A DNA stretch of 64,000 bases, from NCBI RefSeq assembly GCF_000334895.1, contig NZ_BAFM01000008.1, positions 62,001-126,000 of the forward strand, written 5' to 3'. The notes under the pieces were generated by a model, which was not told the DNA's origin, did not search any database, and was given only the letters and a program-made list of their open reading frames with translations. Every line of letters starts with the position of its first letter. The first letter of the stretch is position 1. The position numbers and the translations under genes were made by a program. Shown in pieces: positions 15,372-46,541 of this stretch. This stretch comes from Halococcus agarilyticus (GTDB taxonomy: Archaea > Halobacteriota > Halobacteria > Halobacteriales > Halococcaceae).

Positions 15372-15395
15372 CCGATGGACGTGATGGGGACATGC

Positions 15396-15854: not shown

Positions 15855-15936
15855 TCGTCGCTGCGACGGTCGGCGAACCGTTCGCCCTCCGGACGGAGTT
15901 CGATCCAGCGATCGCTGCCGTGATCGGAGCTGCCGA

Positions 15937-16083: not shown

Positions 16084-16307
16084 CACCGAGGCGTCACGAG
16101 TGATGGAGCTCTCGACGACGCATATCCACGTGGCCGAAACACACCTCGTGGACGGAAGCGAGCTCGTTCTCCGAGCCGGCAGCCGGGAACGCGACGATCG
16201 CGCCGCGCTCGCCGATCTCGGGGACGAACTCGACGAGTCGGGGGTCGAGTGTCGAACTGCCGTTCGACCCTCACGAACGATCCGACACACCGTGGCACGT
16301 TCCACAA

Positions 16308-16315
16308 CGTATAAC
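16308..16315 (+). promoter_or_regulatory. TATA-like box of the kinase-enolase pair
   Basis: CGTATAAC centred about 28 bases before ATG 16340. It supports a leaderless start and argues against the upstream in-frame extension. Confidence 0.5.
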
Positions 16316-16339
16316 ATCCGTCACGACGCCCCTCCTCGC

Positions 16340-30046: not shown

Positions 30047-30838
30047 ATGTCCGGGAGCAACACGCCGCGGTTGGTGAACGCGACGGAGACGTCGCTCGCC
30101 ATCGTCGAGGCCGTTCGCGATCGCGACGGGGCGACGCTCACCGAGGTCGCCGACGGACTCGACATCGGGTACAGCACCGCCCACAACCACCTCGCGACGC
30201 TCTGTGCGAACAACTGGCTCGTCAAGCACGACGGCGAGTACGACATCGGCCTGAAGTTCCTCTCCTTCGGGGAGTACGCACGGCGTCGAACGCCCCACTA
30301 CGACGTCGCGAGGCGACACATGCACGAGCTGACCGAGCGGACCAACCTCGAAGTCGAGTTCCTCGTCGAGGAGTACGGCCGGCTCATTTCGATCGTGGAC
30401 ATGATCGGCGACGCCGGCGGGTTCGGGCCGCCGGAGGACGGCAAGTGGCTGCGGGTTGGCGAGTACTACTACCTCCACAACACGGCCTCGGGTAAGGCGA
30501 TCCTCGCCGAACTCCCCGACGAGCGGGTCGAGGCGATCCTCGATCAGTGGGGTCTCCCGGCGGAAACCCCGTACTCGGTCACCGACCGCGACGAGCTCGA
30601 CGCCCAGCTCGCGACGATCCGCGAACAGGGGTACGCCGAGACCGAACAGGAGGTCGTCGAGGGGTTCGCCAACGCCGGGACCGCCGTCCAGTACCCCGAC
30701 GGGCGGGTCCTCGGTGGGATCAGCGTGGGCTGGCCGACGTACCTCTACAGCGACGGCGTCGATGCCGAAGTCATCGAGCAGCTGCTCGACACCGCCGCGT
30801 CGATCGAAGAGCGGATCGCTGCCACGTCGTCGGACTGA
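30047..30838 (+). CDS. IclR family transcriptional regulator
   Basis: A 263-residue regulator. The N-terminal winged HTH (TSLAIVEAVRDRDGATLTEV, DIGYSTAHNHLATL) precedes an IclR effector domain (PHYDVARRHMHELTER, NTASGKAILAELPDERV, QEVVEGFANAGTAV). The end of the protein (GRVLGGISVGWPTYLY) is normal length. It sits immediately upstream of, and in the same direction as, the CoA-reductase gene, so it is the best candidate for local control of the amine/C3-acid cluster. ATG 30047 is preceded by an AT-rich element at typical promoter distance. Confidence 0.88.
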   Translation: MSGSNTPRLVNATETSLAIVEAVRDRDGATLTEVADGLDIGYSTAHNHLATLCANNWLVKHDGEYDIGLKFLSFGEYARRRTPHYDVARRHMHELTERTNLEVEFLVEEYGRLISIVDMIGDAGGFGPPEDGKWLRVGEYYYLHNTASGKAILAELPDERVEAILDQWGLPAETPYSVTDRDELDAQLATIREQGYAETEQEVVEGFANAGTAVQYPDGRVLGGISVGWPTYLYSDGVDAEVIEQLLDTAASIEERIAATSSD

Positions 30839-30915: not shown

Positions 30916-32814
30916 ATGGCAGCCGACGACACCACCATCGGTAGCGCTATCGACGACGAAACCAGGCGTGAGCTCGTCGACACCGACGATCTCCTTCCGA
31001 CCGGTTCGGCGTTCGTCCCGGGCGAAACGCCGATCCCCGACTACCAGTTGGCGTGGGGGATCACGAGCGACGACGAGGGCGACCCGATTCACGGCGAGCC
31101 CACGGCCGACGACGCCGAACGGGAGCTCGTGATCCCGGTCGAGGAGCCGGGGCCCAACGAGGCGCTGCTGTACATGCTCACCTCGGAGGTCAACTACAAC
31201 GACGTCTGGGCGGTCACCGGCGTGCCGGTCTCGACGTTCGCGGGCCACGACCGCGACTGGCACGTCACGGGTTCGGGCGGGCTCGCGCTGGTCGCCGAAA
31301 CCGGGGCCGGCGTCGCGGACGAGGGCCGGATCGCGGTCGGCGACCTCGTCCACGTCTACGCGGGGAAGTTCGACGCGCTCTCGCCGAAGGCCGGCCGGGA
31401 CCCGATGTTCGCCGACTTCCGGATCCAGGGGTACGAGACGCCGGACGGCTCCCACCAGCAGTTCGTGACCGCCCAGGCGACCCAGCTGTTCGAGCCCCCC
31501 TCGACCCTCGACCTCACCGAGGCGGGCAGCTACATCCTCACGATGGGGACCATCTACCGCGCGCTGACGAACACGCTCGACGTGGAGCCGGGGAGTGATC
31601 TCTTCGTCGAGGGGGCCTCGACCGGTACCGGCCGTGACGCCGTCGAGATGGCGGTGAGCCGGGGGCTCGACGTCACGGGGCTCGTTTCGAGCGACGAGCG
31701 CGCCGAGCGCGCAAAGGGGGTCGGAGCCGACGCGGCGATCGACCGCACGCAGGACGCACTCTCCGGAGCCATGCGGATGGTGCCGAACGATCCCGCCGCG
31801 GTCGAGGACTGGGTGGCCGCCGGCGAGCCGCTGCTGGAGGAGTTCCGTGCGAAAAACGACGGCGAGCTCGCCGACTACGCCATCTCCCACGCCGGTCAGG
31901 AGGCGTTCTCCCGATCCTACCAACTCCTCGACGAGGGCGGCCGGCTCACGTTCTACGGCGCGTCGACGGGCTACGAGATGGCGTTCGTTGGCAAGGGCGG
32001 TGCGACGACGCCGGGCGAGATGTACGACCGCTCGGCGCTCCGGCCGGGCGGGGGCGTGCTCGTCTGGTACGGCACCCCCGACGGGATCGAGGGGACCACC
32101 GACGAGGTCGGCGAGGCCGCGATCGAGGCGGCGCTCGATCGGCGCGCACGTGTGGCCGTCGTCACCGAATCGGAGGAACAGGCCGACGCCGTCGAGTCGG
32201 CACACGACGTCGAGGGTGCGGTCAGCCTCGAACACCTGGCGGCCGAGAACGACGCGGTCGCGTTCGAGCCGCTGCCCGAGCTTCCGAAACCATCCGAACC
32301 CGACGCGCTCGCCGCGACGGTCGGCGAGTACACGAACAAGCTGTTCAAACCCGTCGGGATCGCCACGGGCGAGCTCCTCGCCACGCCGAACAATCCCCGT
32401 GGGAACCCGGACGTCGTCTTCGAGCGCGCGGGTCAGAACACGCTCGGGACGTCGACGATGCTCTGTGCGTCGTTCGAGGGCGAGGTGGTGTACGCCGAGG
32501 CGATGGCCGACCGGCGCTACTCGTTTTACGCGCCCCAGGTCTGGATGCGCCAGCGCCGGATCCACATGCCGACGACCGAAATCTTCGGCACGCACATGAA
32601 GAACACCTACGAGGTGCTGAAGATGAACGAGGAGATCGAGCGCGGGGTTTTCGACGTCCCGCGGACCCATCTCGTCGACTGGGACGACGCCCCCGAAGCC
32701 CATCAGGACATGTGGGAGAACAACCACGAGGAGGGATCGTACGTCATCAACCACGCGCTCCCCGAGGACGGGATCGAATCGAAGGACGAGCTCTTCGCGG
32801 CCTGGGACGTCTGA
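30916..32814 (+). CDS. Crotonyl/acrylyl-CoA reductase-like MDR-family enzyme
   Basis: A 632-residue zinc-free medium-chain reductase resembling crotonyl-CoA reductase/carboxylase and the reductase domain of propionyl-CoA synthase. Features: NEALLYMLTSEVNYNDVWAV (GroES-like part), DLFVEGASTGTGRDAVEMAV (nucleotide fold), VTGLVSSDERAERAKGVGAD, and a repeated C-terminal half with LFYAPQ-like sequence (SFYAPQVWMRQRRIHM). It would reduce an enoyl-CoA such as acrylyl-CoA to propionyl-CoA with NADPH. It is longer than the usual 330-450 residues. It is preceded by the IclR gene and followed by a convergent crotonase gene. Confidence 0.78.
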   Translation: MAADDTTIGSAIDDETRRELVDTDDLLPTGSAFVPGETPIPDYQLAWGITSDDEGDPIHGEPTADDAERELVIPVEEPGPNEALLYMLTSEVNYNDVWAVTGVPVSTFAGHDRDWHVTGSGGLALVAETGAGVADEGRIAVGDLVHVYAGKFDALSPKAGRDPMFADFRIQGYETPDGSHQQFVTAQATQLFEPPSTLDLTEAGSYILTMGTIYRALTNTLDVEPGSDLFVEGASTGTGRDAVEMAVSRGLDVTGLVSSDERAERAKGVGADAAIDRTQDALSGAMRMVPNDPAAVEDWVAAGEPLLEEFRAKNDGELADYAISHAGQEAFSRSYQLLDEGGRLTFYGASTGYEMAFVGKGGATTPGEMYDRSALRPGGGVLVWYGTPDGIEGTTDEVGEAAIEAALDRRARVAVVTESEEQADAVESAHDVEGAVSLEHLAAENDAVAFEPLPELPKPSEPDALAATVGEYTNKLFKPVGIATGELLATPNNPRGNPDVVFERAGQNTLGTSTMLCASFEGEVVYAEAMADRRYSFYAPQVWMRQRRIHMPTTEIFGTHMKNTYEVLKMNEEIERGVFDVPRTHLVDWDDAPEAHQDMWENNHEEGSYVINHALPEDGIESKDELFAAWDV

Positions 32815-32896
32815 GAACGCGCGGTTCGTTCGGCTTTCTCGCTCCGGTCCACTCGCTTCGCGATCCGGACGAATCACCGAACGGTCGCGGTGCTGC

Positions 32897-33703
32897 TCAG
32901 TTCTTTTCGGCGGTTCGCATCCAGTCGATGGCGGCCGAGACGCCCTCCTCGTCGGCGATCTCGTGGAACTCCTGGGCGGTCTCGGTTTCGGCGGAGGCCG
33001 CGTAGAGGTACTTCGCGACGTTCGCGGCGGAGTTCGACCGGTAGCCCTGGGTCTCCTGGACGTCGTTGAGGGTGTCCTTCAGCAGCTTCGTGATCGCGCT
33101 CGGGACGCGCTTCATGTGATCGACCTCGTCCATCACCGTGTCCATGAGTTCCTCCTCGGACACGACGCGGTTGACGATCCCCATCCGCTCGGCCTCCGTG
33201 GCGTCGACGTGCTTGCCCGTGTAGAACAGCTCGCGCGCGTGTTTCAGCGATCCCGTCACGAACGGCAGCACCATCGCCGGCGGGAGCTCGCCCATCCGCA
33301 TGTCGGGGAAGCCGAACTCCGAGCGCTCGGTGGCGAACGTGAGGTCACAGACCAGCGCGAGGTTGCAGCCGCCGGCGAGGGCGTAGCCGTCGACGGCGGC
33401 GATCACGGGAATGGATAGATTGTAGATCGCGTCGAGATGGGTGTACTCCGACTCGATGATCGTGTCCATCGACGGCTCCTCGTCGGCCCCGAAGTCGTAG
33501 CCCGACGAGAACGCGCGGCCGTTGCCCGTCAGCACGACCGCGCGCACGTCGGCCGCGTCCTCCGCGGCCGCGAGCGCGGCTTCGAGTTCGTCGAGGAGCC
33601 CCGTACTCAGTGCGTTGAGCGTGTCGGGGTCGTCGAGGGTGACGATACGCGCGCCGTTCTCGGTTCGCACGTCGAGGTGATCGTAGTCGCTCATCGGTTG
33701 CAT
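32897..33703 (-). CDS. Enoyl-CoA hydratase/isomerase family protein
   Basis: A 268-residue crotonase-fold protein. Oxyanion-hole segments are RAFSSGYDFGAD and VDGYALAGGCNLALVCD. The two Glu of hydratases (rat Glu144 and Glu164) correspond here to Asn (GGCNLAL) and Asp (FPDMRMGE), so classical hydration of enoyl-CoA is doubtful; isomerase, lyase or other CoA chemistry is possible. ATG 33703 is preferred to ATG 33694 because a TATA box centred at 33729 would place the transcript start there. It probably acts with the reductase and acyl-CoA synthetase nearby. Confidence 0.82.
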   Translation of the reverse strand: MQPMSDYDHLDVRTENGARIVTLDDPDTLNALSTGLLDELEAALAAAEDAADVRAVVLTGNGRAFSSGYDFGADEEPSMDTIIESEYTHLDAIYNLSIPVIAAVDGYALAGGCNLALVCDLTFATERSEFGFPDMRMGELPPAMVLPFVTGSLKHARELFYTGKHVDATEAERMGIVNRVVSEEELMDTVMDEVDHMKRVPSAITKLLKDTLNDVQETQGYRSNSAANVAKYLYAASAETETAQEFHEIADEEGVSAAIDWMRTAEKN

Positions 33704-33725
33704 CTCCGTCTCGCTCGCAGTCGGG

Positions 33726-33732
33726 CTTATAC
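33726..33732 (-). promoter_or_regulatory. TATA box of the crotonase gene
   Basis: On the minus strand GTATAAG is centred about 26 bases before ATG 33703. This spacing favours leaderless initiation at the upstream of two nearby ATGs. Confidence 0.5.
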
Positions 33733-33770
33733 CCGTCGGTACCTGTCAGCCAGGAGTGGTTCCCACCCAG

Positions 33771-35000
33771 TCAGCTCCGCTGCGCCTGCCACGACGCCAT
33801 CGGGGCGAAGTCGAAGTCGGTGTCACGGGTGTCGAACCGATCGAGCCGGTGGGGGTCGCGCGGGAAGGGACACGCCTCGTCCGTGAGGAACGATCTGACG
33901 GCGGCACCGATGCTCTTGGTCGCCATCACCCCGGCCCCGTGAAAGCCCGCAGCGACCGCCAGGCCGTCGGGCCCCTCGTCGGGCGCGTCGACGATCGGCC
34001 TGGCGTCCGGCGTCGTGCAGTCGGCCATCGGACAGACTTCCCAGCGAACGACGTCGTCCGCGGGGTCGACGTGCGCGAGCAGTTCCGGAAGGTCCTCGTT
34101 CAGCAACCGTTCTAGCCGGGGACCGATCTGCTCGTGATCCTCGCCGCGAACACCCGAGGGCTCCGCCTCCTGCGCCCCCTCCGCACCGTTGCGGGTGCTG
34201 CTGTGGGGCCCTCGATCGAGCGCCTCGTCGCCGTAGTAGTGTTCGATACCGACGATCAGGTGATCGTCCCGCGTGGGTCGCCAGTAGCATTGCTCCTGCC
34301 AGTCGCCACCCATTGGGTACTCGTCCGGCAGTTCGACGTCGAGATAGGCGACGTTCCAGACGAACTTCCTGATGGGGAGCGGGAGCACGTCCGCGAGCAG
34401 GGGTCGCGTTCCCGATCCCGCCGCGACGACGACCGACTCGGCGTCGACCCGTTGGTACTCCGTCTCGACGCCCACTGCGGCTCCGTTCTCGACGCACACC
34501 GACTCGACCAGCGTGTCCGGCCGAAACTCGACGCCACGTTCCACGCACAGGCGCTGCAGCGTCGACAGCCACTCGTCGATGTCGAAGTAGCCGGTGTACT
34601 CGTCCCAGACGAGCACCTTCTCGTACGGCGAGTCGTCGTCGAACGTCTCGTTCCACCGATCGTACTCGCCCGGCTCGCGCAGCGTGACCCACTCCCGCTC
34701 GGCGACCGTCTCGGCCCGCTCGATTTCGCCGGTGCGGACGCCCCGGACGAACTCGCGCTCCGTGTACTCGAAGACGCCCGTTCCGTCCATCTCCTCGAAG
34801 AACTCGACGGCGTGACGGGCCCACTCCGGCTGCTCGGGGTAGTCGACGGGCGTCGTGATGACGCCGGAGGCGCGGCTCGACGTCCCGTTGCCGATACGAT
34901 CGCCGTCGACCACCAGCACGTCGTGATCGGGTGCCAAGTGCCACGCGGAAGACAGACCCGCGACACCGGATCCGACGATGACGACATCGAACTCGGACAT
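33771..35000 (-). CDS. FAD-dependent amine/amino acid oxidoreductase (DAO family) 1
   Basis: A 409-residue flavoprotein of the D-amino acid oxidase fold. The dinucleotide motif FDVVIVGSGVAGLSSAW starts at residue 3, followed by SRASGVITTPVDYPEQPEW and a C-terminal FAD motif (PDGLAVAAGFHGAGVMATKS). A polar insertion of about 30 residues (around SSTRNGAEGAQEAE) interrupts the substrate domain. Such enzymes oxidise secondary or primary amines or gamma-glutamylated amines; PuuB belongs to the same fold. ATG 35000 starts MSEFDVV. It is divergent from the acyl-CoA synthetase gene and paralogous to the enzyme at 40386-41552. Confidence 0.85.
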   Translation of the reverse strand: MSEFDVVIVGSGVAGLSSAWHLAPDHDVLVVDGDRIGNGTSSRASGVITTPVDYPEQPEWARHAVEFFEEMDGTGVFEYTEREFVRGVRTGEIERAETVAEREWVTLREPGEYDRWNETFDDDSPYEKVLVWDEYTGYFDIDEWLSTLQRLCVERGVEFRPDTLVESVCVENGAAVGVETEYQRVDAESVVVAAGSGTRPLLADVLPLPIRKFVWNVAYLDVELPDEYPMGGDWQEQCYWRPTRDDHLIVGIEHYYGDEALDRGPHSSTRNGAEGAQEAEPSGVRGEDHEQIGPRLERLLNEDLPELLAHVDPADDVVRWEVCPMADCTTPDARPIVDAPDEGPDGLAVAAGFHGAGVMATKSIGAAVRSFLTDEACPFPRDPHRLDRFDTRDTDFDFAPMASWQAQRS

Positions 35001-35243
35001 TGCGGTTGGTACGCACACCCGCACTCACTAAACGCTATCGGGCACGGCAAACGGCAGGACGGCCGGTCTCGCCAGCGAAACGCAGTTCTACCGAAGGAAT
35101 CGACGAGGAACAGCCGATTGTAAGCAGGATCGTCGTGGCGACCGCTCGTTTCGGGCTCGCCGTCACTCGCTGCGGCCGCAGGCGCTGACACGCCGATCCT
35201 GACGACCGAAAGCTACTAACGAGCGGTGTGCGAACCTCCACCG

Positions 35244-37358
35244 ATGTCCGAGCAGCTACAGCGGCTCTTCAACCCGGAGTCCGTCGCGGTCGTCGGTGCG
35301 TCGACGAACCCCGAAAAGCGCGGCTACCGGACGATCGAGGACCTCGACGAGTGGGGGTACGATGGCGAGGTCTACCCCGTGAACCCACGGTACGACGAGA
35401 TCCGCGGCCACGAGACCTACGCGTCGGTCGCCGACGTTCCTGGGGGCGTTGACCTCGTGTTCGTCGCCATCCCCGCCCCGTACGTCCCCAAAGTCATCCG
35501 CGAGAGCGGCGCGGCGGGCGCGGCTGGCGCGGTCGTCAACACCGCCGGGTTCGACGAGGTTGGCGAGGACGACCTCGCCGCCGATCTCGCGGCGGCGGCG
35601 CGGGAAGCGGGCGTCCGGATCGTGGGCCCGAACATCCAGGGGATCGACGCGGTCCACCAGCAGCTCCACCTCCTCGGGAGCTATCGGACGACGCCCGGCG
35701 GGCTCGGGCTGCTGACCCAGAGCGGCAACATGGGCGTCGATCTGTCCGTCGACGCCCAGCACCGCGGCAACGTCGGCTTCAGCTACAACATCGGTGTGGG
35801 CAACGAGACCGACCTCCAGTTCGGCGAGTACCTCGACTTCCTCGCGACCGACGAGAACACCGACGGCGTGACGATCTACACCGAGGGGATGGAGGACGGC
35901 CGATCGTTTCTCGAAACTGCCCAGCGCGTCTCGTCGGAGACCCCCATCGTCGCGTTCAAGGCGGGCCAGACGTCGGCGGGAAAGGAGTCCGCGGCGTCAC
36001 ACAGCGCGTCGCTCGCGGGCGACATCGACGTGGTCGACGCGGCGTATCGCCAGGCAGGCGTGACCCGAGTCGAGAGCCTCGATCGCGTGGTCCCCGTGGC
36101 GTCGGCGCTCACTCAGTCGCCGACCCCCGACGGCCCGAACGTCGCGGTGCTCACCGACGGCGGCGGTCACGGTACGGTCGCATCGGACGTGCTCACCGAA
36201 GCGGGCCTCACACTCCCGGAGCTCACCAAGGAGACTCGGGCCGAGCTGGCGGAGCTGTTCCCCATCTCACCGAACCTCGCCAATCCCGTGGACGTGATGG
36301 GGCAGTCCTCACACATCGACATGTGGGCGGCGGCCCCCGAGATCATCCTCGACGACCCGAACGTCGACATGCTGTTGATAACCGGCGCGTACGGTGGCTA
36401 CGAGGAACACTGGACCGGCCACGAGACCGAAGCCGAACCGGACGAGGAGCCGCGTGCGGCCGATCGCATCGTGAACGCCAGAGACGAGACCGGAAAGCCG
36501 GTCGTGATCCACAGCCTCTTCGCCGAGCTGGGGTCGGCAGCGTTCCGACGACTCCGCGCTGGCGGCGTCCCGGTCCACGATGCCGTCACCGACGCGGCGG
36601 CGTGTCTCGACGCGCTCGCGGCGTACGGACGGCACTGCCGCCACGCCGACGAGAAGTCCGACTTCGCTCTCCCCGCGCGCGACGAGAACCGGAGCCGTAT
36701 CGTCGACGGCTCGCGGCTCGCCGAACACGACGCGAAACGCCTTCTCGCGGAGTACGGTGCGCCGGTCGCGCCGTTCGAACTGGCCGCGAATCCCGAGGAG
36801 GCAGTCGACGCCGCCGCGGGGTTCGACGGCCCGGTCGCCATGAAGATCGCCTCGTCCGACATCGTTCACAAGACCGAGGCCGGCGGCGTGGAGCTCGACA
36901 TCGCCAGCGAGGACGCGATCCGAGCGGCGTTCGAGGCGATCATGGACAGCGTCGCGGCGTACGACCCGTCGGCCGAAATCGACGGCGTCCTGGTCTCGCC
37001 GATGGTCGACGACGGCGTCGAGCTGATCGTCGGCGTCGTCGAGGACCCGGAGGTCGGCCCGGTCGTGACCTGCGGCATCGGCGGCGTGCTCGTCGAGGCC
37101 ATCGACGACGTGGCGTTCCGCGCGCTCCCGCTCACGGCGTACGACGCCCGAGAGATGATCGACGAGATCGAGGCCCAAGCCCTCCTCGATGGCCCGCGCG
37201 ACCGGCCGGCGGTCGACCGCGACGCGCTCGCCGACCTTCTGTGTACTGTCTCCGACCTCGTGATCGAGAACCCCGCGATCGACGAACTCGACCTCAACCC
37301 CGTCGTCGCCACCGACGACGGACTCTCGATTCTGGATGCAGCAGTCGAACTCGACTGA
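35244..37358 (+). CDS. Acyl-CoA synthetase, ADP-forming (fused alpha and beta)
   Basis: A 704-residue fused NDP-forming acyl-CoA synthetase. The CoA-binding Rossmann part is SVAVVGASTNPEKRGYRT, and the succinyl-CoA-synthetase-like part carries the phosphohistidine His253 (SAASHSASLAGD). The C-terminal ATP-grasp half is VAMKIASSDIVHKTEAGGVEL and VTCGIGGVLVEAIDD. It interconverts acyl-CoA + ADP + Pi and acid + ATP + CoA. In this cluster a C3 or C4 acid (for example 3-hydroxypropionate, GABA-derived acid or acetate) is plausible. ATG 35244 (MSEQLQRLFNPESV) is the family start. Confidence 0.9.
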   Translation: MSEQLQRLFNPESVAVVGASTNPEKRGYRTIEDLDEWGYDGEVYPVNPRYDEIRGHETYASVADVPGGVDLVFVAIPAPYVPKVIRESGAAGAAGAVVNTAGFDEVGEDDLAADLAAAAREAGVRIVGPNIQGIDAVHQQLHLLGSYRTTPGGLGLLTQSGNMGVDLSVDAQHRGNVGFSYNIGVGNETDLQFGEYLDFLATDENTDGVTIYTEGMEDGRSFLETAQRVSSETPIVAFKAGQTSAGKESAASHSASLAGDIDVVDAAYRQAGVTRVESLDRVVPVASALTQSPTPDGPNVAVLTDGGGHGTVASDVLTEAGLTLPELTKETRAELAELFPISPNLANPVDVMGQSSHIDMWAAAPEIILDDPNVDMLLITGAYGGYEEHWTGHETEAEPDEEPRAADRIVNARDETGKPVVIHSLFAELGSAAFRRLRAGGVPVHDAVTDAAACLDALAAYGRHCRHADEKSDFALPARDENRSRIVDGSRLAEHDAKRLLAEYGAPVAPFELAANPEEAVDAAAGFDGPVAMKIASSDIVHKTEAGGVELDIASEDAIRAAFEAIMDSVAAYDPSAEIDGVLVSPMVDDGVELIVGVVEDPEVGPVVTCGIGGVLVEAIDDVAFRALPLTAYDAREMIDEIEAQALLDGPRDRPAVDRDALADLLCTVSDLVIENPAIDELDLNPVVATDDGLSILDAAVELD

Positions 37359-37446: not shown

Positions 37447-38826
37447 TCACTCGTCGGCGATGGCCCGGAACGCGTCTTCGGCGATCTCGATCGCCTCGTC
37501 GATCTGTTCTTCCGTATTGGAGTAGGCGGTGAAGAAGCGCTCGTACTGGTCGTCGTTGCCGAACAGTGCGCCGTTCGCCGCGGCCTCGAACCACCAGTCG
37601 GCGAAGCGGTCGGCGTCGGCCTCCCACGTCTCGCGCTGGGTCTCGGGGACCTCGTCCATCATGAACACCGTCCCCATCGAGCCGATGTGCTGGACCGCGG
37701 CGTCGACGCCGGCCTCGTCGGCGGCCTCTTCGAGCCCGGTGAACAGTCGGTCGGCGAGCGGCTCGATGTGGTCGTACACCGGTTCCCCGTCGAGCAGTTC
37801 GAGGGTCGCGAGGCCCGCCGCGCACGACACCGGATGGCCGTTGTAGGTCCCGCCGTGGAACGCCGACTCGCGCCACGCGGCCTCGGGATCGTCCGCCGGG
37901 GGCTCGATCTCGCGCATGATCTCCTCGCGGCCGCCGAACGCGCCGAGCTGGTAGCCGCCGCCCGCGACCTTCGCGAGCGTCGTCATGTCGGGCGTGACGC
38001 CGAACCGGCCCTGGGCGCTCTCCGGCCCGAGCCGGAACCCCGTCATGACCTCGTCCCAGAGCAACACGATGTCGAGCTCCGCGGTGAGTTCGCGGAGGAA
38101 CTCGTGGTAGCCGTCGGCGGGCGGCAGGACGCCACACGACGCGAGCACGGGTTCGATGACGACGCAGGCGAGGTCGTCGGCGTGCTCGCGAAGGATCTCT
38201 TCGGTGGCCTCGCGGTCGTTGAACGGGAACGCCACGACGGTCTCGGCCACCTCGTCGGGGATCCCAGTCCCATAGGGCACGGTGTTCGGACGCTCTTCCG
38301 GCCCGAGTGCCTCGACGGAGGCGGAAACCGACTGGAGCGCGTAGTCGTGCGCGCCCGCGTACCCGCCCTCGGGTTTGGCGATCATCGACTTGCCAGTATA
38401 GGAGCGCGCGACCCGGATCGCGTGCATCGTGGCCTCGGACCCGCTGTTCGCGAGCCGGACCGTCTCGATGCTGGGCGTCATGTCCCGGATCTGCTCCATC
38501 ACGTCGATCGCCACGGTCTGGGGCAGCGCGGAGATGTCGCCACACTTCTCGACCTGGGCTTTGACCTGCTCGACGACCGCCGGGTGGTTGTGGCCGAGGA
38601 TTCCGGGCCCCAGCCCCATCAGGAAGTCGAGATACTCGTTGCCGTCGATGTCGGTGACGTACGACCCCTCGGCCTCGCCGAGGTAGAACGGATAGGGGTC
38701 CATCGACCGGACGTTCGACTCCACACCGAGCGGCGTCACCTCGCGGGCGCGCTCGTGGTACGACTCGCTTTCCGGCGTCTGCTCGCGCAACCGCTGGAAG
38801 TGGCTGTCTGAGTCTTGCAGACTCAT
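37447..38826 (-). CDS. Class III aminotransferase (omega-amine/HemL-like)
   Basis: A 459-residue PLP enzyme. NSGSEATMHAIRVAR (127-141) forms the phosphate cup, VLLWDEVMTGFR carries Asp258 that holds the pyridine N, and Lys286 is in TTLAKVAGGG. HGGTYNGHPVSCAAGLA is the HemL-like C-terminal motif. It is not hemL itself by context. It sits back to back with the glutamine-synthetase-like gene, so it probably moves the amino group from an omega-amino acid such as GABA or beta-alanine, or from a diamine. ATG 38826 follows an AT-rich TTATTACC promoter. Confidence 0.87.
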   Translation of the reverse strand: MSLQDSDSHFQRLREQTPESESYHERAREVTPLGVESNVRSMDPYPFYLGEAEGSYVTDIDGNEYLDFLMGLGPGILGHNHPAVVEQVKAQVEKCGDISALPQTVAIDVMEQIRDMTPSIETVRLANSGSEATMHAIRVARSYTGKSMIAKPEGGYAGAHDYALQSVSASVEALGPEERPNTVPYGTGIPDEVAETVVAFPFNDREATEEILREHADDLACVVIEPVLASCGVLPPADGYHEFLRELTAELDIVLLWDEVMTGFRLGPESAQGRFGVTPDMTTLAKVAGGGYQLGAFGGREEIMREIEPPADDPEAAWRESAFHGGTYNGHPVSCAAGLATLELLDGEPVYDHIEPLADRLFTGLEEAADEAGVDAAVQHIGSMGTVFMMDEVPETQRETWEADADRFADWWFEAAANGALFGNDDQYERFFTAYSNTEEQIDEAIEIAEDAFRAIADE

Positions 38827-39022: not shown

Positions 39023-40330
39023 ATGACAGCACCCACGACCGCCGCCGAGATGGAAGAGCGGATCGAGACCGCCGGGATCGAGCACGTCCTCACCGAGTTC
39101 GCCGACCTCAACGGGATCTCGCGCTCGAAACAGTTCGCCGCCGAGCAGTTCCTCGAAACCTGGAGTGAGGGCCCGAGCATGAACCTCGCCGTGCTCGGCC
39201 AGACGCCAGGCAACGAGATGCCCGTCGGATCGGGGCTCGCGGCGGCGGTCGACTACGCCGACGCCACGCTCCGACCGGACCCGACGACGTTCCGCGTGCT
39301 GCCGTGGCGCGAGAACACCGCCCGCGTGCTCTGCGATCTGGCGTTCGACGGCGAGCCCGTGGCGGCCGCGCCGCGGGACGCCCTCCGACGGGTCCTCGAC
39401 GACCACGAGTTCGGGTTCGAGTTCGGCGTCGGCAGCGAGCTCGAGTTCTACCTGCTGGAGGACACCGACGCGGGCTACGAGCCGGTCACGGATGGCCCCC
39501 ACGAGTACGTCTCGTGGGCGACCGAGGAAATCACGCCGTTCTACGAGCGCCTGGCGGCGTGGGCGCGCGAGTACGGTATCCCATTGGATTCGCTCCAGCA
39601 CGAACACGGGCCCGGCCAGTTCGAGATCCTCTTCGAGCACGGCGCACCGCTCGACCAGGCCGACCGGACGTTCGACTTCGAGAGGGTCGTCGAGCGAACC
39701 GCGCGGGCCGCCGATCGGTACGCCACGTTCATGGCGAAACCGTTCGCCGACCACTCCGGCAGCGGCTATCATCTCCACGTGAGCGCGTTCGACGGCGGCG
39801 AGAACGTCTTCGCCGACGGCGACGGCGGCCTCTCCGAGCGGGGACGCCAGTTCGTCGGCGGGCTCCTCGAACACGCTGCCGGGCTGACAGCTATCGGCAC
39901 GCCGACGATGAACGGGTTCAAGCGCTACGATCCGGAGGGGTTCGTCCCGACCACCGCCTCGTGGGGCCGGGACAACCGCCGCGTCGCCGTCCGGCTCCCG
40001 AACGGGACGCCCCGCGTGGAGACGAGGATCGGGAGCGCGGACGCCAACCCCTACCTCGTGATCGCCGCGACACTGGTGGCGGGGCTCCACGGGCTTCGCG
40101 ACGAAATCGATCCGGGCGAGGCGGTCGAGGGCAATCCATCGGGCCGGCGGCCGCGGCTGCCGCGCACCCAGGGCGAGGCGCTCGCCGCGCTCGAAGCCGA
40201 CGACGAGCTCGTCGACGCACTCGGGGCGGAGCTCGTCCGGGCGTACGTCGCGTCGAAGCGCCGCGACCGCGCCGCGTTCGACGAGACGGTGACCGACTGG
40301 GAGCGCGAGCGGTACGTCCCCACGCTCTGA
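39023..40330 (+). CDS. Glutamine synthetase-like gamma-glutamyl-amine ligase (PuuA/GlnT type)
   Basis: A 435-residue GS-fold ligase. Metal and glutamate residues are in VGSELEFYLLE, HEHGPGQFEI and SGSGYHLHVS; the ATP/substrate region is TASWGRDNRRVAVRLP; ADANPYLVIAATLVAGLHGL closes the catalytic core. The reading MAKPFADHSGSGYHLHV with TMNGFKRYDPEGFVP matches PuuA/GlnT-type proteins more closely than assimilatory GlnA, as I remember them. It would join glutamate to an amine (putrescine, diaminopropane, ethylamine or similar) using ATP, the first step of gamma-glutamylated amine degradation. It is divergent from the aminotransferase. Confidence 0.88.
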   Translation: MTAPTTAAEMEERIETAGIEHVLTEFADLNGISRSKQFAAEQFLETWSEGPSMNLAVLGQTPGNEMPVGSGLAAAVDYADATLRPDPTTFRVLPWRENTARVLCDLAFDGEPVAAAPRDALRRVLDDHEFGFEFGVGSELEFYLLEDTDAGYEPVTDGPHEYVSWATEEITPFYERLAAWAREYGIPLDSLQHEHGPGQFEILFEHGAPLDQADRTFDFERVVERTARAADRYATFMAKPFADHSGSGYHLHVSAFDGGENVFADGDGGLSERGRQFVGGLLEHAAGLTAIGTPTMNGFKRYDPEGFVPTTASWGRDNRRVAVRLPNGTPRVETRIGSADANPYLVIAATLVAGLHGLRDEIDPGEAVEGNPSGRRPRLPRTQGEALAALEADDELVDALGAELVRAYVASKRRDRAAFDETVTDWERERYVPTL

Positions 40331-40385: not shown

Positions 40386-41552
40386 TCACTCCGTCGCGCT
40401 GATGCTCCGAAACTCGAAGTCGGGTGATCGGGACTCGAACCGATTCACCCGGAATGGATCGAGCGGGAACGGCGCGTCGGCGTCGGTGACGAGCGAGCGG
40501 ACCGCGGTCGCGGTCACGGGAGCGGTCATCACCCCGCGGCCGTGGAAGCCGGTGGCGACCACGAGGCCGTCGGGAGCGTCGGCCGGCGCGTCGATCACAG
40601 GTATAGTGTCGGGCGTCGCGGCGTCGACGCCCGCCCAGCCGTCGACGAAGCCTGCCCCGTCCATCCCCTCGAAGATCCGCGGGACGACCCGCGCGACGTG
40701 ATCGCGGAACCCCTCGTCCTCGGAGCGACTCGCCGCTGCGGGCTCCTCGACGGCGAACGACCACCCGCCGACGAGGAGGTCGCCGTTCCGTTCGGGTCGC
40801 CAGTAGACGTGCTCCTCGGGGAGCGACCCCATCGGGAGATCCGAGACGTCCTCGCCGGGATCGAGCACGAGACACTGGGTGCGGTACGGCCGGATCGGGA
40901 GTTCGACGATTCCGTCGAGCAGCCGCGGCGTCCACCAGCCCGCCGCGACGACCACCGTCGGCGCGCGGAACGTCGTGTCCGGCGTCTCGACGCCGACGAC
41001 CTCACCCCCCTCGACGAGGAGGTCGGTCACGGGCGTCTCGGTGTGAACGGTGGCTCCGCGGGCCTCCGCGTCGTCCTGAAGCGTCGCGGCGAAGGTGAAC
41101 GGGTCGAGCCAGCCGTGGCCTGGCGCGGCGTCGTACTCGACCCCGCCGGCGAATCCGTCCGCGTTCAGCCGCCGGTATCGCTCGCGGAGCTCCGCCGGCG
41201 TGCGAAAGGTGCCGGCGTGACCGTCGCCGGCGGCGTTCGCCTCGCGGTGGATTTCGACAGCCGCGTCCGACGGGACGAGCCGGACGTACTCCCGGCGCTC
41301 GTAGGCGAACTGTCCGGTCCCGTCGTACGACTCGAAGAAGGCCGCCGCGTGGTCGCTGATCGCGGGCTCCTCGGGGTAGGTCGCACGGAGCCCGATGAGG
41401 CCCGCCGCGAGCCCCGACGCCTCGGCGGCGACCTGGCCCTTCTCGATCACGGCGACGTCGTGGTCGGCGGCGAGATCGCGTGCGATCGCGATCCCCGCGA
41501 CCCCGCCACCGACGACGATCACGTCCGCTGTCTGGGTCTGCTCGGCCGACAT
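40386..41552 (-). CDS. FAD-dependent amine/amino acid oxidoreductase (DAO family) 2
   Basis: A 388-residue flavoprotein. The FAD motif is ADVIVVGGGVAGIAIARDL, then EASGLAAGLIGLRATYPEEP, and the C-terminal motif is DGLVVATGFHGRGVMTAPVT. A central YRTQCLVLDPGE beta segment is typical of the sarcosine-oxidase-like DAO group. It probably oxidises the (gamma-glutamyl-)amine to an aldehyde in the pathway opened by the neighbouring ligase. It ends convergent with the ligase gene and starts 58 bases downstream of the aldehyde dehydrogenase, in the same direction, so the dehydrogenase and oxidase form an operon. Confidence 0.86.
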   Translation of the reverse strand: MSAEQTQTADVIVVGGGVAGIAIARDLAADHDVAVIEKGQVAAEASGLAAGLIGLRATYPEEPAISDHAAAFFESYDGTGQFAYERREYVRLVPSDAAVEIHREANAAGDGHAGTFRTPAELRERYRRLNADGFAGGVEYDAAPGHGWLDPFTFAATLQDDAEARGATVHTETPVTDLLVEGGEVVGVETPDTTFRAPTVVVAAGWWTPRLLDGIVELPIRPYRTQCLVLDPGEDVSDLPMGSLPEEHVYWRPERNGDLLVGGWSFAVEEPAAASRSEDEGFRDHVARVVPRIFEGMDGAGFVDGWAGVDAATPDTIPVIDAPADAPDGLVVATGFHGRGVMTAPVTATAVRSLVTDADAPFPLDPFRVNRFESRSPDFEFRSISATE

Positions 41553-41609: not shown

Positions 41610-43034
41610 TCAGTCGTTTTTGTAGTTCATCATGACGGCCTTCACCTGGGTCATCGATTCGAGATGCCACTTGCTACCGTAGCGGCCGCCGGAGCCGCTC
41701 TCGCCGTACCCGCCGAACGGCAGCAGGCGCTCCCAGTAGTTGTTGGTCTCGTTGACGAACACGCCGCCCGCCTGCAGCCTGTTCGCGGCGTCGTGGGCGC
41801 GTTCGAGCGAGTCGGTGAAGATCGCAGCCTGGAGCCCGTAGCGCGATCGGTTGGCGATCTCGATGGCGTCGTCGTACCCTTCGGCCCGGATGACGGGCGT
41901 GACGGGCCCGAACGTCTCCTCGCGAGCGATGTCCATGCGCTCGGTCACGTCGTCGAGCACGGCGGGGGTGTAGTAGCGCCCGTCGGTGTCGCCGCCGGTT
42001 CTGAGCGTCGCGCCCGCCTCGACCGCGCTCTCGACGTGCTCGACGGCCGTTCGCTGGATGCGCTCGCTGACCATCGGTCCGATCTCGGTCGCCTCGTCGA
42101 GCGGGTCGCCAACCTGGAGCGCCTCGGTCTTCTCGGTGATCGCCTCCACGAGCTCGTCGTGGACGCCCTCGGTGGTGATGACGCGCTCGGTGCCACAGCA
42201 GACCTGACCCGCGTTCGCCGTGCTTCCGACGACGATGCTCTCGGCGGCGTGCTCCACGTCGGCGTCGTCGAGCACGAGGATCGGATCCTTCCCGCCCATC
42301 TCCAGCAGGCACTGGGCGTTGCGTTCGGCGGCGGTCTTCGCGATCTCCTGACCGACCGCGGTGCTGCCGGTGAACGCGATCAGCCTGACGTCGCGATGGT
42401 CGACGAGCGACGCGCCGGTGTCGCCCGCGCCGGTGACGAGGTTGAACGCGCCGTCGGGGAGGCTCGACTGGTCGAACGCCCGTGCGACGTGGTAGGCGGT
42501 GAGTGGCGTCTCCTCGGCGGGTTTGAACACCACGGGATTGCCGGTCGCGATGGCGGAGTAGATGCTGCCACCCGGGATCTCCAGCGGGAAGTTCCACGGG
42601 CTGATGACCGCACACGGGCCGTACGGCTCGCGCTGGGTGTAGGCGAACCGTCCCCGGAACTCCGAGGGGACGACGTCGCCGAAGAGGCGGATCGCGTCGT
42701 GGGCGTAGTCGTCGCTCGACGCGATGACGTACTCGGTCTCCTCGTAGGACTCCTCAAGGGGCTTGCCCTCCTCGCGCGTGATCCCCTCGGCGATCTCGTC
42801 CTCGTGGGCCTCGAAGTACTCGGTCACCTCGTCGAGCACGGCCGCGCGCTCGAACACCGTCATCGCCGCCAGTTCGCGCTCGGCACGGCGCGCCGCCTCG
42901 ACCGCACGCCGCACGTCCCCTGCCGAACCGTCCGGCACCTCGTCGAGCACCGATCCGTCGATCGGCGAATCGACCTCGATGCCGTCGTTCGAATCGGCCT
43001 CGACCCACTCGCCGTCGATGTATAGCTGTCTCAT
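41610..43034 (-). CDS. Aldehyde dehydrogenase (NAD(P)-dependent) 1
   Basis: A 474-residue ALDH. The Rossmann part has SPWNFPLEIPGG and VVFKPAEETPLTA (Lys171), the general base Glu245 is in LEMGGKDP, and the nucleophile Cys279 is in GQVCCGTER. EETFGPVTPVIR and GGVFVNETNNYW complete the pattern. It would oxidise an aminoaldehyde, for example gamma-glutamyl-aminobutyraldehyde in a PuuC-like role. ATG 43034. Divergent from the ABC importer genes, and 58 bases upstream of the FAD oxidase start, consistent with co-transcription. Confidence 0.9.
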   Translation of the reverse strand: MRQLYIDGEWVEADSNDGIEVDSPIDGSVLDEVPDGSAGDVRRAVEAARRAERELAAMTVFERAAVLDEVTEYFEAHEDEIAEGITREEGKPLEESYEETEYVIASSDDYAHDAIRLFGDVVPSEFRGRFAYTQREPYGPCAVISPWNFPLEIPGGSIYSAIATGNPVVFKPAEETPLTAYHVARAFDQSSLPDGAFNLVTGAGDTGASLVDHRDVRLIAFTGSTAVGQEIAKTAAERNAQCLLEMGGKDPILVLDDADVEHAAESIVVGSTANAGQVCCGTERVITTEGVHDELVEAITEKTEALQVGDPLDEATEIGPMVSERIQRTAVEHVESAVEAGATLRTGGDTDGRYYTPAVLDDVTERMDIAREETFGPVTPVIRAEGYDDAIEIANRSRYGLQAAIFTDSLERAHDAANRLQAGGVFVNETNNYWERLLPFGGYGESGSGGRYGSKWHLESMTQVKAVMMNYKND

Positions 43035-43288: not shown

Positions 43289-44290
43289 ATGGCAACTGAT
43301 CACGCGCGCGGCGAGTCGGTCGACCTGTTCGACCGGCTCCGCCGCCACCGGTACGTCGGGTTGGTGTTCAACATCGCGCCAGCGAGCGTGTGGCTCGTGG
43401 CCTTCTTCCTCGTCCCGCTCGCAGTCATGTTCTACTACAGCTTCGGCACCCGCGGGGCGTTCGGGGTGGTGCTCCTCGACGCCGCCAACCTCGGCCTCCA
43501 GCAGTACGTGACGTTTTTCATTCCTGACGACGCGTCCGTTCTGGAGGCCGCGTGGTACACCGTCGGCTGGCTGTTCGGCCAGTTCGTGCCGTTCGTGCCG
43601 AACGTCGCGGGCGGGACGCCGACGCCGTACGTCCAGCTGCTGTTCAAGAGCCTCTACTTCGGCGTGATCACGACGGTCTTCGCGCTTGCGATGGGCTACC
43701 CGCTCGCATACTTCGTCGCTCGAAAGACGCCGTCGGGCTATCAGAACCTCCTCGTCGCGCTCGTCGTGCTGCCGTACTGGGCGTCGTACCTCGTCCGGAT
43801 CTACGCGATCAAGATCCTCCTCGCGAGGGGCGGCCTCGTCGACAGCCTGCTCACCACCCTCGGGATCGCGGACAACGTCACGCTGCTCTACTCCGACATC
43901 GCGGTCGGGACCGGCCTCATCTACGTCTACGTCCCGTTCATGATCCTGCCCGTGTACGCGAGCCTCGAACAGTTCGACCCGACCCTGGAGGAGGCCGCGA
44001 TGGACCTCGGTGCGGACCGTCTCGACGCGTTCCGGAAGGTGACGCTGCCGCTGTCGCTGCCCGGCGTGATCGCCGGCAGCATCCTCGTGTTCATCCCCGC
44101 GGTGGGGACGTACGTCATCCCGGAACTGCTCGGCGGGACGAGCACCGCGACCATCGGGGAGTTCATCGCGAGTCAGTTCGGCGCGGCGGGCAACTGGCCG
44201 CTCGGGGCGGCGGCGGCGTTCGTCCTCATGGTCATCATGTTCGGCGCGCTCTGGGCGTACCAGACGTGGGCCGGGGGTGACTTCCTGTGA
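43289..44290 (+). CDS. potB: Polyamine-type ABC transporter permease (PotB-like)
   Basis: A 333-residue membrane protein with about six hydrophobic segments and the permease EAA loop (LEEAAMDLGADRLDAFRKVTLPLS, positions about 238-262). The first TM has IAPASVWLVAFFLVPLAVMF, a PotB/PotH-like start. A long first external loop (about residues 60-110) separates TM1 and TM2. It forms the channel with the next gene's product and is powered by the PotA-like ATPase. ATG 43289 is used; upstream sequence in frame is not coding-like. Confidence 0.88.
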   Translation: MATDHARGESVDLFDRLRRHRYVGLVFNIAPASVWLVAFFLVPLAVMFYYSFGTRGAFGVVLLDAANLGLQQYVTFFIPDDASVLEAAWYTVGWLFGQFVPFVPNVAGGTPTPYVQLLFKSLYFGVITTVFALAMGYPLAYFVARKTPSGYQNLLVALVVLPYWASYLVRIYAIKILLARGGLVDSLLTTLGIADNVTLLYSDIAVGTGLIYVYVPFMILPVYASLEQFDPTLEEAAMDLGADRLDAFRKVTLPLSLPGVIAGSILVFIPAVGTYVIPELLGGTSTATIGEFIASQFGAAGNWPLGAAAAFVLMVIMFGALWAYQTWAGGDFL

Positions 44291-45132
44291 GCACCACCAC
44301 CGTGAGCCGGTTCAAGCGGATCCGATCGCGGCTCATCGACCGCCACGGCGGCACCGCGCTGGGGATCGAGGCGATCCTCGTCTACGCGTTCCTCTACACC
44401 CCGATCGCGGTGATGGTCGCGCTCTCCTTTAACGACTCCCGGCTCGCGATCGTCTGGCAGGGCTTTACGACCGAGTGGTACGCGGCGCTGTTCAGCGGCG
44501 AGACCATCGCGCGCGTCAACCCCACGGTCGCGTGGAACGCCCTCCAGAACTCCCTCCTGATCGCCGTCGTCACCGTCGTCGTCTCCACGACGTTCGGGAC
44601 GATGCTCGCGCTCGCGCTGAACCGCTACGAGTTCCCCGGCAAGGGCCTTCTCCAGGGTGTGACCTACATGCCGCTCATCATCCCGAGCATCGTGATGGGG
44701 ATCTCGCTGCTCCTCTTCTTCAATCTCCTCGGGATCGCCACCGGCGTCGGGACGGCGATCGTCGGCCACATCGCGTTCGACATCTCCTACGTGACCGTGA
44801 TCGTGCTCGCGCGCCTCCAGAGCTTCGACCGGACGCTCGAGGAGGCCGCGAAGGACCTCGGCGCGCGGGAGTTCGAGACGTTCCGGTGGGTCACGTTCCC
44901 GCTGATCAAGCCGGGGATCATCGCGGGGGCGCTGCTCGGCTTCGCGATGTCGTTCGACGACTTCGTGGTGACGTTCTTCATCATCGGGAACGAGAACACC
45001 CTCCCGATCTTCTTCTTCGGGATGGTTCGCCAGGGGATCTCCCCCGGCGTGAACGTCATCGCGACGGCGATCCTCGTGGCGACGTTCGGGTTCGTCGCGC
45101 TCGCCCAGTGGATCGGCGGGATCACGTGGTGA
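44287..45132 (+). CDS. potC: Polyamine-type ABC transporter permease (PotC-like)
   Basis: A 281-residue permease. TM1 is AILVYAFLYTPIAVMVALSF, then the EAA loop is LEEAAKDLGAREFETFRWVTFPLI (about 188-211). The segment GFAMSFDDFVVTFFIIGNENTLP is characteristic of PotC/PotI, where it contributes to substrate passage. The GTG start overlaps the PotB stop by four bases (GTGA), giving coupled translation. It is followed by a separate promoter for the binding protein. Confidence 0.9.
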   Translation: MSTTTVSRFKRIRSRLIDRHGGTALGIEAILVYAFLYTPIAVMVALSFNDSRLAIVWQGFTTEWYAALFSGETIARVNPTVAWNALQNSLLIAVVTVVVSTTFGTMLALALNRYEFPGKGLLQGVTYMPLIIPSIVMGISLLLFFNLLGIATGVGTAIVGHIAFDISYVTVIVLARLQSFDRTLEEAAKDLGAREFETFRWVTFPLIKPGIIAGALLGFAMSFDDFVVTFFIIGNENTLPIFFFGMVRQGISPGVNVIATAILVATFGFVALAQWIGGITW

Positions 45133-45172
45133 GATCTTCCCGCCACATCTGACGGTGGATTTTACCGGAACG

Positions 45173-45179
45173 TTTATTA
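45173..45179 (+). promoter_or_regulatory. Promoter and ribosome site of the binding-protein gene
   Basis: TTTATTA centred 40 bases before ATG 45216. A purine-rich GAGAGGAG (45198-45205) lies 11 bases before the start and is a possible Shine-Dalgarno. A separate promoter would allow the binding protein to be made in excess over the permeases. Confidence 0.45.
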
Positions 45180-45215
45180 CCGAAGTTCCCAACTGTCGAG
45201 AGGAGCGGTACGATC

Positions 45216-46472
45216 ATGAAAGGAGATACCACAGCGTCCCGTCGGAAATTCCTCCAAGCAACCGGCACGCTCGGCGTCGGCTCCGCCATCGCACTCGCGG
45301 GCTGCGTCGGCAGCGGTGGCGGAGGCGGGAGTGACGGCGGCGGGAACACCAACGGGGGCACTGGCGGCGGGAACATCAGCGGCGGGGGCGGCGGAACGGG
45401 AAACAACAGTAGCGTTCCGTCGGGCGGTGACGCGTCGGTTCGCGAGGAGTACGGGCTCCCCGAACTCGACTACGAGCTGGAGAACAGACTCAATATCTTC
45501 CAGTGGACCGACTACTGGCCCTCGGAGACGGTGGGGATCTTCGAGAAGGCCTACGGGGTGAAGGTGAACGTCTCGAACTTCGCGTCGAACGAGGAGATGT
45601 TCAACAAGCTCAAGGCCGGTGGCTCCGGCCAGTTCGACCTCATCTTCCCGTCGGACTACATGGTGAACATCCTCGCGTCCCAGGACCTGATCCAGCCGAT
45701 CGACAAGGGAAAGATCCCGACGTGGGACAACCTCGAAGAGCGGTGGGCGAAGAACCCGTCGTACGATCCGAGCGACAAGCGCTACTCGGTTCCGTACTTC
45801 TGGGGCACCAGCGGGACGGGCTGGAACACGAACATGGTCGACGGCATCGGCGACACGCCCTCGTGGGACCTGATGTGGAACGAGGAGTACAAGGGGCAGA
45901 TGACGATGCTCAACGACATGCGCGAGACCATCGGGGCCTCGCTCAAGCGACTCGGCTACTCGCTGAACACGAAGGACGAGGCCAAGATCGAGGAGGCGAA
46001 GGAGGCGCTCATCGAGCAGAAGCCGCTCCTGACGACGTACTCGTCGGTGAGCCGCGACGCGGCGCTCCAGAAGGAGAACGCGAGCCCGGTCCACCTCTGG
46101 AACGGCGACGCGATCAAGGCGTACTACGCCATGGTCGAGGACGGCGAGGCACCGATCGAGTACTTCGTCCCGAAGGAGGGCGGCGTCGTGTGGATGGACA
46201 CGATGGACATCACGAAGAACGCCTCGCACGTCAACGCCGCGTACGCGTTCATGACGTTCCTCCTCAACGCCAAGATTGCCGCGAAGAACGCGAACTACGT
46301 CGCGTACGGCAGCCCGAACAAGGCCGCCAAGGAGTACATCGACGACTCCCTGCTGGAGATGAAGGCGATCTACCCCGAACAGGCCACGATGGACAAACTC
46401 GAGTTCATCGAGAACATCGGCCAGGCGACCCAGACGTACAGCCAGGCGTGGACCGAGATCCAGAACGCCTAA
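45216..46472 (+). CDS. potD: Spermidine/putrescine-type substrate-binding lipoprotein (PotD-like)
   Basis: A 418-residue exported protein. A Tat signal (twin Arg 9-10 in SRRKFLQAT) is followed by a lipobox (ALAGC, Cys30), then a Gly/Ser/Asn-rich linker (about 33-65) holding it off the membrane. The mature domain starts LNIFQWTDYWPSETV and includes FDLIFPSDYMVNILASQDLI and VPYFWGTSGTGWNTNMV, the PotD/PotF fold. The predicted ligand is a polyamine or related cation; ligand residues cannot be proven by eye. It is located between the permeases and the ATPase. Confidence 0.9.
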   Translation: MKGDTTASRRKFLQATGTLGVGSAIALAGCVGSGGGGGSDGGGNTNGGTGGGNISGGGGGTGNNSSVPSGGDASVREEYGLPELDYELENRLNIFQWTDYWPSETVGIFEKAYGVKVNVSNFASNEEMFNKLKAGGSGQFDLIFPSDYMVNILASQDLIQPIDKGKIPTWDNLEERWAKNPSYDPSDKRYSVPYFWGTSGTGWNTNMVDGIGDTPSWDLMWNEEYKGQMTMLNDMRETIGASLKRLGYSLNTKDEAKIEEAKEALIEQKPLLTTYSSVSRDAALQKENASPVHLWNGDAIKAYYAMVEDGEAPIEYFVPKEGGVVWMDTMDITKNASHVNAAYAFMTFLLNAKIAAKNANYVAYGSPNKAAKEYIDDSLLEMKAIYPEQATMDKLEFIENIGQATQTYSQAWTEIQNA

Positions 46473-46541
46473 CTCGCTCTCCGCTCAACGCACCAGCATG
46501 ACAACACCACGCGCGCACCAATCCGGCGGTGGAACGGATCG

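Follow-up and report, generated by a model that had tools for sequence, protein, structure and literature searches.

Can the reactions that propionyl-CoA synthase (PCS) carries out within one fused protein also be run by separate ones, and is this what three neighbouring genes of a haloarchaeon do? The question is raised by a stretch of 64,000 nucleotides from Halococcus agarilyticus (contig NZ_BAFM01000008.1, positions 62,001 to 126,000; the window in what follows), in which a reductase, a crotonase-fold protein and an ADP-forming acyl-CoA synthetase are encoded within 6.4 kb. The three fused domains of PCS form a reaction chamber in which toxic acryloyl-CoA is sealed off. A sequence-only reading of the window had suggested that the trio could be a dispersed PCS that turns 3-hydroxypropionate (3HP) into propionyl-CoA; our analysis supports this for the reductase, which is of the PCS type, whereas crotonase and synthetase are enzymes different from those of PCS. 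Gene boundaries in the window (genome G000; haloarchaeal, G+C about 67%, 3.48 Mb in 58 contigs) were taken from a map based on codon usage and families from Pfam and NCBIfam, which agree on the three genes:

30916-32814, plus strand: stand-alone PCS-type reductase, probable NADPH-dependent acryloyl-CoA reductase, 632 amino acids (end-to-end alignment with 6eqo, tree, multiple alignment)
32897-33694, minus strand: crotonase-fold protein, 265 amino acids, N111/D131 (Pfam ECH_1; active-site alignment)
35244-37358, plus strand: ADP-forming acyl-CoA synthetase, 704 amino acids, phosphohistidine H253 (Pfam CoA_binding_2, Succ_CoA_lig, ATP-grasp_5)

All three genes were confirmed where that reading had placed them. 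Two further genes had not been part of it, namely one for a DAO-family oxidase between the crotonase and synthetase genes and one for an IclR-family regulator just upstream.

In a phmmer search of the PDB, the top match of the reductase was 6eqo_A, residues 1221-1839 of which align over query residues 14-630 with 650 bits, whereas Ccr (4gi2) reached 160 bits in two separate pieces. Chain 6eqo_A, labelled 'acetyl-coenzyme A synthetase' in the PDB file, is the trifunctional PCS of Erythrobacter (NAP1), an identity borne out by the fused relatives of about 1,800 amino acids found in this analysis. The homology to the PCS of Chloroflexus and Erythrobacter covers the whole length of the window reductase, including a long stretch between the Rossmann and C-terminal parts that is common to reductase and PCS and absent from Ccr; within the same subfamily of medium-chain dehydrogenases/reductases (MDR) the window protein is about 200 residues longer than Ccr (TIGR01751). 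In the alignment its N95, Y173-E174 and H560 fall into the region of Ccr that holds Asn, Phe/Tyr-Glu and His, residues with a role in that enzyme. The earlier label of a crotonyl-CoA-reductase-like enzyme thus holds for the family and can be narrowed to the PCS type.

The comparison with Ccr, AcuI and PCS reductase domains which the sequence-only reading had called for was made in a tree of 69 rows (bacterial and haloarchaeal PCS domains, Ccr and short MDRs; quick method). Three groups were obtained, a stand-alone clade (support 99), haloarchaeal PCS (100) and bacterial PCS (98), with no branching order set among them; jointly they are split off from Ccr with a support of 99 and from the quinone-reductase-like MDRs with one of 100. 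The window reductase belongs to the first, a clade of eight haloarchaeal non-PCS proteins, seven of which are the reductase alone and one a PCS-like crotonase-reductase fusion without synthetase. An identity as Ccr was rejected, as the protein lies outside the Ccr rows and scores 214 bits against a cut-off of 378.55 for TIGR01751, and one as quinone reductase or short MDR was rejected from the separation of the MDR rows. The models for AcuI/YhdH and the archaeal MDR acryloyl-CoA reductases (TIGR02823 and NF041172), which presumably catalyze the same reaction and whose short MDRs form a separate tree group, gave just 21-23 bits. That the protein is an unrelated quinone reductase or zinc alcohol dehydrogenase in a coincidental neighbourhood, as weak matches to the PIG3 and ADH models might suggest, is hardly credible, being refuted by the tree and the full-length PCS alignment. 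Judged by alignment and tree position, the window reductase is the PCS reductase module in the form of a separate protein, and its most likely reaction is the NADPH-dependent reduction of acryloyl-CoA to propionyl-CoA, an assignment we consider well supported.

Among 391 haloarchaeal genomes searched, stand-alone-type relatives (66-73% identity) were found in eight including the window's own, and fused PCS of about 1,800 amino acids, with 53-55% identity to the window reductase, in about 12 (about 15 haloarchaeal genomes overall). No additional stand-alone copy turned up when the families to which G246, G244 and the window genome belong were searched in full, and within its own genus, which was searched, only the window's genome has one. 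The fusion in the clade of eight (L032 in G021) is a protein of 956 amino acids that matches PCS residues 845-1796 colinearly with 52% identity, i.e. a PCS minus its synthetase domain; its C-terminal reductase part forms the basal branch of the stand-alone clade (support 80). As its crotonase is still colinear with that of PCS, reductases of this lineage have had a PCS-type dehydratase as partner. In addition, a PCS split within the crotonase domain, at about residue 1025, occurs in one Chlorobiota and two Acidobacteriota genomes (L112, 5771-8857 and 9398-11884; L059, 9446-11911; L062, 9446-11902), the first half lying in a separate locus in the two Acidobacteriota (G396:C38, G397:C117). PCS is therefore found as full fusion, split fusion, crotonase-reductase and reductase alone. 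Two reductase genes are disrupted: a fragment with four stops lies beside glutamine synthetase (GS) and aminotransferase genes in L038 (9973-10467; G246:C2:275434-276180), and in L037 of G290 (8702-10658) the reductase is spread over two frames.

As to the other PCS domains, the genomes with a stand-alone reductase contain no PCS-type acyl-CoA synthetase or enoyl-CoA hydratase elsewhere, beyond PCS itself and L032; in the window genome the best relative of the PCS synthetase domain has just 38% identity and that of the PCS-type hydratase 44% over 187 residues. One of these genomes, G246, also carries a full-length fused PCS (L039, 9187-14622, with 14985-18490 and 6738-9024), with a methylmalonyl-CoA mutase gene 0.4 kb away and a carboxyltransferase gene at a distance of about 2.3 kb, which shows where haloarchaeal PCS chemistry leads. 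On its other side lie an apparent iron-type alcohol dehydrogenase gene and a 3-hydroxyacid-dehydrogenase-like gene, both named from their sequence starts only, and the row looks like a gene set leading from 3HP to succinyl-CoA. Such chemistry is not in itself new for haloarchaea, as a 3HP route has already been proposed for Haloferax mediterranei (review PMC7137286). A description of a haloarchaeal PCS was not found in literature titles and snippets, a search outside which most subscription journals fall, so this absence means little.

The window trio differs from PCS in being unfused and encoded on both strands. Its synthetase is ADP-forming, as the sequence-only reading had held, on account of its CoA-binding, succinyl-CoA-ligase-like and ATP-grasp domains and the conserved phosphohistidine H253, and is unrelated to the AMP-forming synthetase domain of PCS. 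The claim of 3HP as substrate gained no direct support: against cut-offs of 1300 bits, the protein scores 402.5 with the 3HP-CoA ligase model (NF045492) and 383 with that for 4-hydroxybutyrate-CoA ligase. None of the curated substrate cut-offs is reached, and the sequence does not reveal the substrate. The best solved relatives belong to the Nitrosopumilus-type ligases for these two acids within the same superfamily, with 9y43, an ADP-forming 3HP-CoA ligase, at the top and 8wzu also among them. The existence of such ligases and the clade position of the reductase are in favour of a dispersed PCS acting on 3HP, in which the crotonase would be an ordinary 3-hydroxypropionyl-CoA dehydratase; however, the synthetase is far under the 3HP-CoA ligase cut-off and has its domains in the reverse order of 9y43, and no gene forming 3HP was recognised in the cluster.

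The crotonase argues further against it. It shares 28-35% identity with PCS crotonase domains, and in the active-site alignment Asn111 and Asp131 occupy both positions of the catalytic glutamates (E144/E164 in rat enoyl-CoA hydratase), which are kept in the PCS domains, the L032 fusion and the canonical hydratase. All but one of its 12 closest relatives share the Asn/Asp pair, the exception (L163) having Asp/Gly. A detached PCS dehydratase domain was rejected on both counts, the protein being of a different family with an altered site. Hydroxycinnamoyl-CoA hydratase-lyases hydrate with just one of the two acids, a point that would help a dehydratase, but the missing water-activating glutamate seems to fit an eliminating lyase or isomerase better than a hydratase. 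Taken together, we regard the dispersed 3HP-converting PCS as unlikely.

What then could be loaded on CoA? The surroundings of the trio suggest an acid derived from an amine:

30047-30838, plus strand: IclR-family transcriptional regulator, directly upstream of the reductase (Pfam IclR_C/HTH_IclR)
33771-35000, minus strand: FAD-dependent oxidase of the DAO family (Pfam DAO; gene map)
37447-38826, minus strand: class III aminotransferase, candidate for transamination of beta-alanine or gamma-aminobutyrate (Pfam Aminotran_3)
39023-40330, plus strand: GS-like ligase, candidate gamma-glutamylpolyamine synthetase (best NCBIfam match gamma-glutamylputrescine synthetase, below cut-off)
40386-41552, minus strand: second FAD-dependent oxidase of the DAO family (Pfam DAO)
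41610-43034, minus strand: aldehyde dehydrogenase (Pfam Aldedh)
43289-47696, plus strand: spermidine/putrescine-type ABC transporter, PotB, PotC, PotD and PotA-like (PotD and PotA from NCBIfam; PotB and PotC from position and relatives)
Between the Pot genes and the next in gene-map order: amidase
49350-50867, plus strand: CoA-acylating methylmalonate-semialdehyde dehydrogenase, one of the three aldehyde dehydrogenases of the cluster (TIGR01722, 502.5 bits against a cut-off of 448.5)
50905-51564, minus strand: class I glutamine amidotransferase, candidate PuuD-like hydrolase (Pfam GATase/Peptidase_C26)
51842-53356, plus strand: third aldehyde dehydrogenase

From these assignments the amine setting is judged genuine, resting on the PotABCD set, the GS-like gene, two DAO oxidases, the aldehyde dehydrogenases and the amidotransferase. 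The first oxidase and the crotonase gene are separated by 77 bases and apparently co-transcribed. A glutamate-putrescine ligase, GlnA-2, has been described in Hfx. mediterranei, where its gene lies between transporter genes, and the Puu-like scheme drawn up with it has no CoA-dependent C3 branch (PMC8394153). The GS-like gene, DAO oxidases, aldehyde dehydrogenase, amidotransferase and aminotransferase of the window are likenesses to this pathway. Relatives of several of these genes recur: of the GS-like ligase in L177 (66% identity) and L038 (52%), of the amidotransferase in L176, L033 and L169 (58-67%), and of the aminotransferase in L154, where it adjoins a synthetase (38%). IclR genes stand beside reductase and/or synthetase in L031 (39%), L037 (37%), L154 (45%) and L164 (40%), a further relative being found in L176 (55%).

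The trio itself recurs as well, as seen in gene maps of the relatives made from composition and BLAST rather than from curated annotation; the linkage evidence comes from few genomes. In L033 of G246, from another family of the order, it has the order and orientation of the window (reductase 69%, crotonase 65%, synthetase 63%), and DAO, GS, aminotransferase, aldehyde dehydrogenase, amidotransferase, IclR and Pot genes are found in about 90 kb around it. In Haloferax marinum (L031; L050 is the same contig) the trio (73%, 47% and 50%) forms part of an operon-like row of IclR, crotonase, synthetase, an EamA protein, a Rieske oxygenase (11615-12715; best model glycine betaine monooxygenase, below cut-off), reductase and a betaine-type (BCCT) transporter. 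L037 holds IclR, synthetase, BCCT and the two-frame reductase. This type of synthetase is present in four of the eight reductase genomes and 15 of 391 overall (hypergeometric p 9e-5), the crotonase in three of the eight and 22 of 391 (p 0.007), both values being uncorrected for genome kinship. Other combinations exist: in L167 the synthetase is joined by a different crotonase and an AMP-forming ligase, and in L164 of G247 (3191-11162) IclR, BCCT, a Glu/Glu crotonase and the synthetase are accompanied by a short MDR instead of the reductase, a set that may be analogous to that of the window while using an unrelated reductase. A cassette with the ADP-forming synthetase between two crotonases (one Glu/Glu and one Asp/Phe where checked) and no reductase was seen in L165, L166 and L168-L173, usually accompanied by an Lrp-type regulator as well as a Pot-type ABC transporter and in several cases by a nitrilase-like gene.

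In a small alignment the synthetases fall into sub-types, MGxS in the window, L033 and L154 with DAO/Pot genes, MGLQG in L031, L037 and L164 with BCCT transporters, and VAGGTD in L165, L170, L171 and L172 alongside two crotonases and Pot genes (Lrp also being present in three of the four, and a nitrilase-like gene in at least two). Because the three sub-types go with three gene settings, the acid loaded on CoA probably differs between them. The BCCT setting could point to an onium propionate, beta-alanine betaine or dimethylsulfoniopropionate (DMSP), whose CoA ester would lose trimethylamine or dimethyl sulfide to give acryloyl-CoA and then propionyl-CoA. IclR, synthetase and reductase accompany BCCT in L031 and L037, as do IclR and synthetase with the short MDR in L164, and DMSP is turned into acryloyl-CoA by the ATP-dependent DMSP lyase DddX, which is related to the ADP-forming synthetases and binds the sulfonium with W391 and F435 (PMC8163506). 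The phosphohistidine is common to DddX (7cm9) and the window synthetase; W391 and F435, however, are replaced by Met and Glu, the cation-pi residues being lost, and a DddX-type DMSP lyase was rejected for the window protein. Opposite the general base E432 the alignment has a Glu, in a gapped region that makes the match uncertain. As the window trio in addition lies with a polyamine-type ABC transporter and no BCCT alongside, an onium propionate is an improbable substrate here. The BCCT transporters of L031 and L037 match the CaiT model below its cut-off, which could mean that the reductase acts on a C4 enoyl-CoA (crotonyl-, 4-aminocrotonyl- or crotonobetainyl-CoA) in a set resembling the carnitine genes caiTABCD (transporter, CoA ligase, crotonase, reductase), and C4 acids do arise from polyamine routes; but in its motifs the reductase matches PCS, which acts on acryloyl-CoA, and the protein is not a Ccr equivalog, making this more improbable still.

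The reading we favour, with a confidence just short of even, is that a separate PCS-type reductase, a synthetase and a crotonase lead a beta-substituted propionate through acryloyl-CoA to propionyl-CoA in a branch of amine catabolism. The reductase would belong to an IclR-controlled branch of the island, whose genes for polyamine-type uptake, gamma-glutamylation, oxidation and hydrolysis can yield C3 and C4 amino acids. The synthetase would join a beta-substituted propionate to CoA, for which our best guess in the window is beta-alanine or an N-substituted form of it derived from a polyamine or diamine; the Asn/Asp crotonase, or another crotonase of the cell, would remove the beta-substituent by elimination; and the acryloyl-CoA so formed, a toxic compound, would be trapped by the reductase as propionyl-CoA. 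We infer the substrate, the elimination as crotonase reaction and the order of flux through the three proteins. From propionyl-CoA, a carboxylase specific for it and methylmalonyl-CoA mutase could then lead on to succinyl-CoA; four carboxyltransferase and two mutase-type genes are present in the window genome. Across the loci, the constant part is most likely the reduction of acryloyl-CoA by the PCS-type reductase and the variable part the acid. The narrower version, in which the trio is an unfused PCS counterpart with a beta-alanyl-CoA (or 3-ammonio- or 3-onio-propionyl-CoA) synthetase, the crotonase as ammonia or amine lyase and the reductase yielding propionyl-CoA, is possible, if doubtful.

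Several observations weigh against the proposed branch. The aminotransferase and the methylmalonate-semialdehyde dehydrogenase could use the same C3 units, and a path from beta-alanine through malonate semialdehyde to acetyl-CoA would be simpler. As it bypasses the trio, it weakens the earlier suggestion that the trio serves C3 units from spermidine or diaminopropane, of which the amine setting remains. Only three of the 22 genomes with the Asn/Asp crotonase have a stand-alone reductase, nine inspected neighbourhoods of this crotonase contain neither synthetase nor reductase, and the close relatives L031 and L037 are found with BCCT transporters and not with polyamine genes. A second locus of Haloferax marinum, L154, has crotonase and synthetase without reductase, together with an aminotransferase, three DAO genes and IclR.

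The L154 locus would also suit a reductase that acts alone in reducing or detoxifying acryloyl-CoA, with crotonase and synthetase in another route such as the side-chain breakdown of an amine-derived acid. The crotonase family does occur by itself in many genomes, and in L034-L036 the reductase lies, with no crotonase nearby, beside an AMP-forming ligase (matching the 3-methylthiopropionyl-CoA ligase model, below cut-off), the glyoxylate-cycle genes for an isocitrate-lyase-family protein and malate synthase, and an NhaC-type antiporter. Against this stand the trio's being neighbours in the window, L033 and L031 and the co-occurrence of synthetase and reductase above chance; we consider separate roles rather unlikely.

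Our results suggest that the steps of PCS can likewise be carried out by separate proteins, among them another kind of ATP-using enzyme and a crotonase of unusual type. With the reductase free in seven haloarchaea and fused to a crotonase alone in one, the PCS chamber would be dispensable or otherwise replaced, and the stand-alone clade offers small pieces for probing how and why the PCS fusion arose. If the flux is as proposed, haloarchaea gain a CoA-dependent C3 branch carrying amine or betaine carbon through propionyl-CoA to succinyl-CoA, and the function of the Asn/Asp crotonase family becomes directly testable; if the narrower, beta-alanyl-CoA version is true, this would add a crotonase-fold beta-alanyl-CoA lyase and an archaeal route from polyamines or betaines to propionyl-CoA.

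Within the amine-catabolism island of G246 lies an open reading frame resembling an IS110-type transposase (L175, 16752-17792), which together with the sporadic distribution suggests horizontal transfer.

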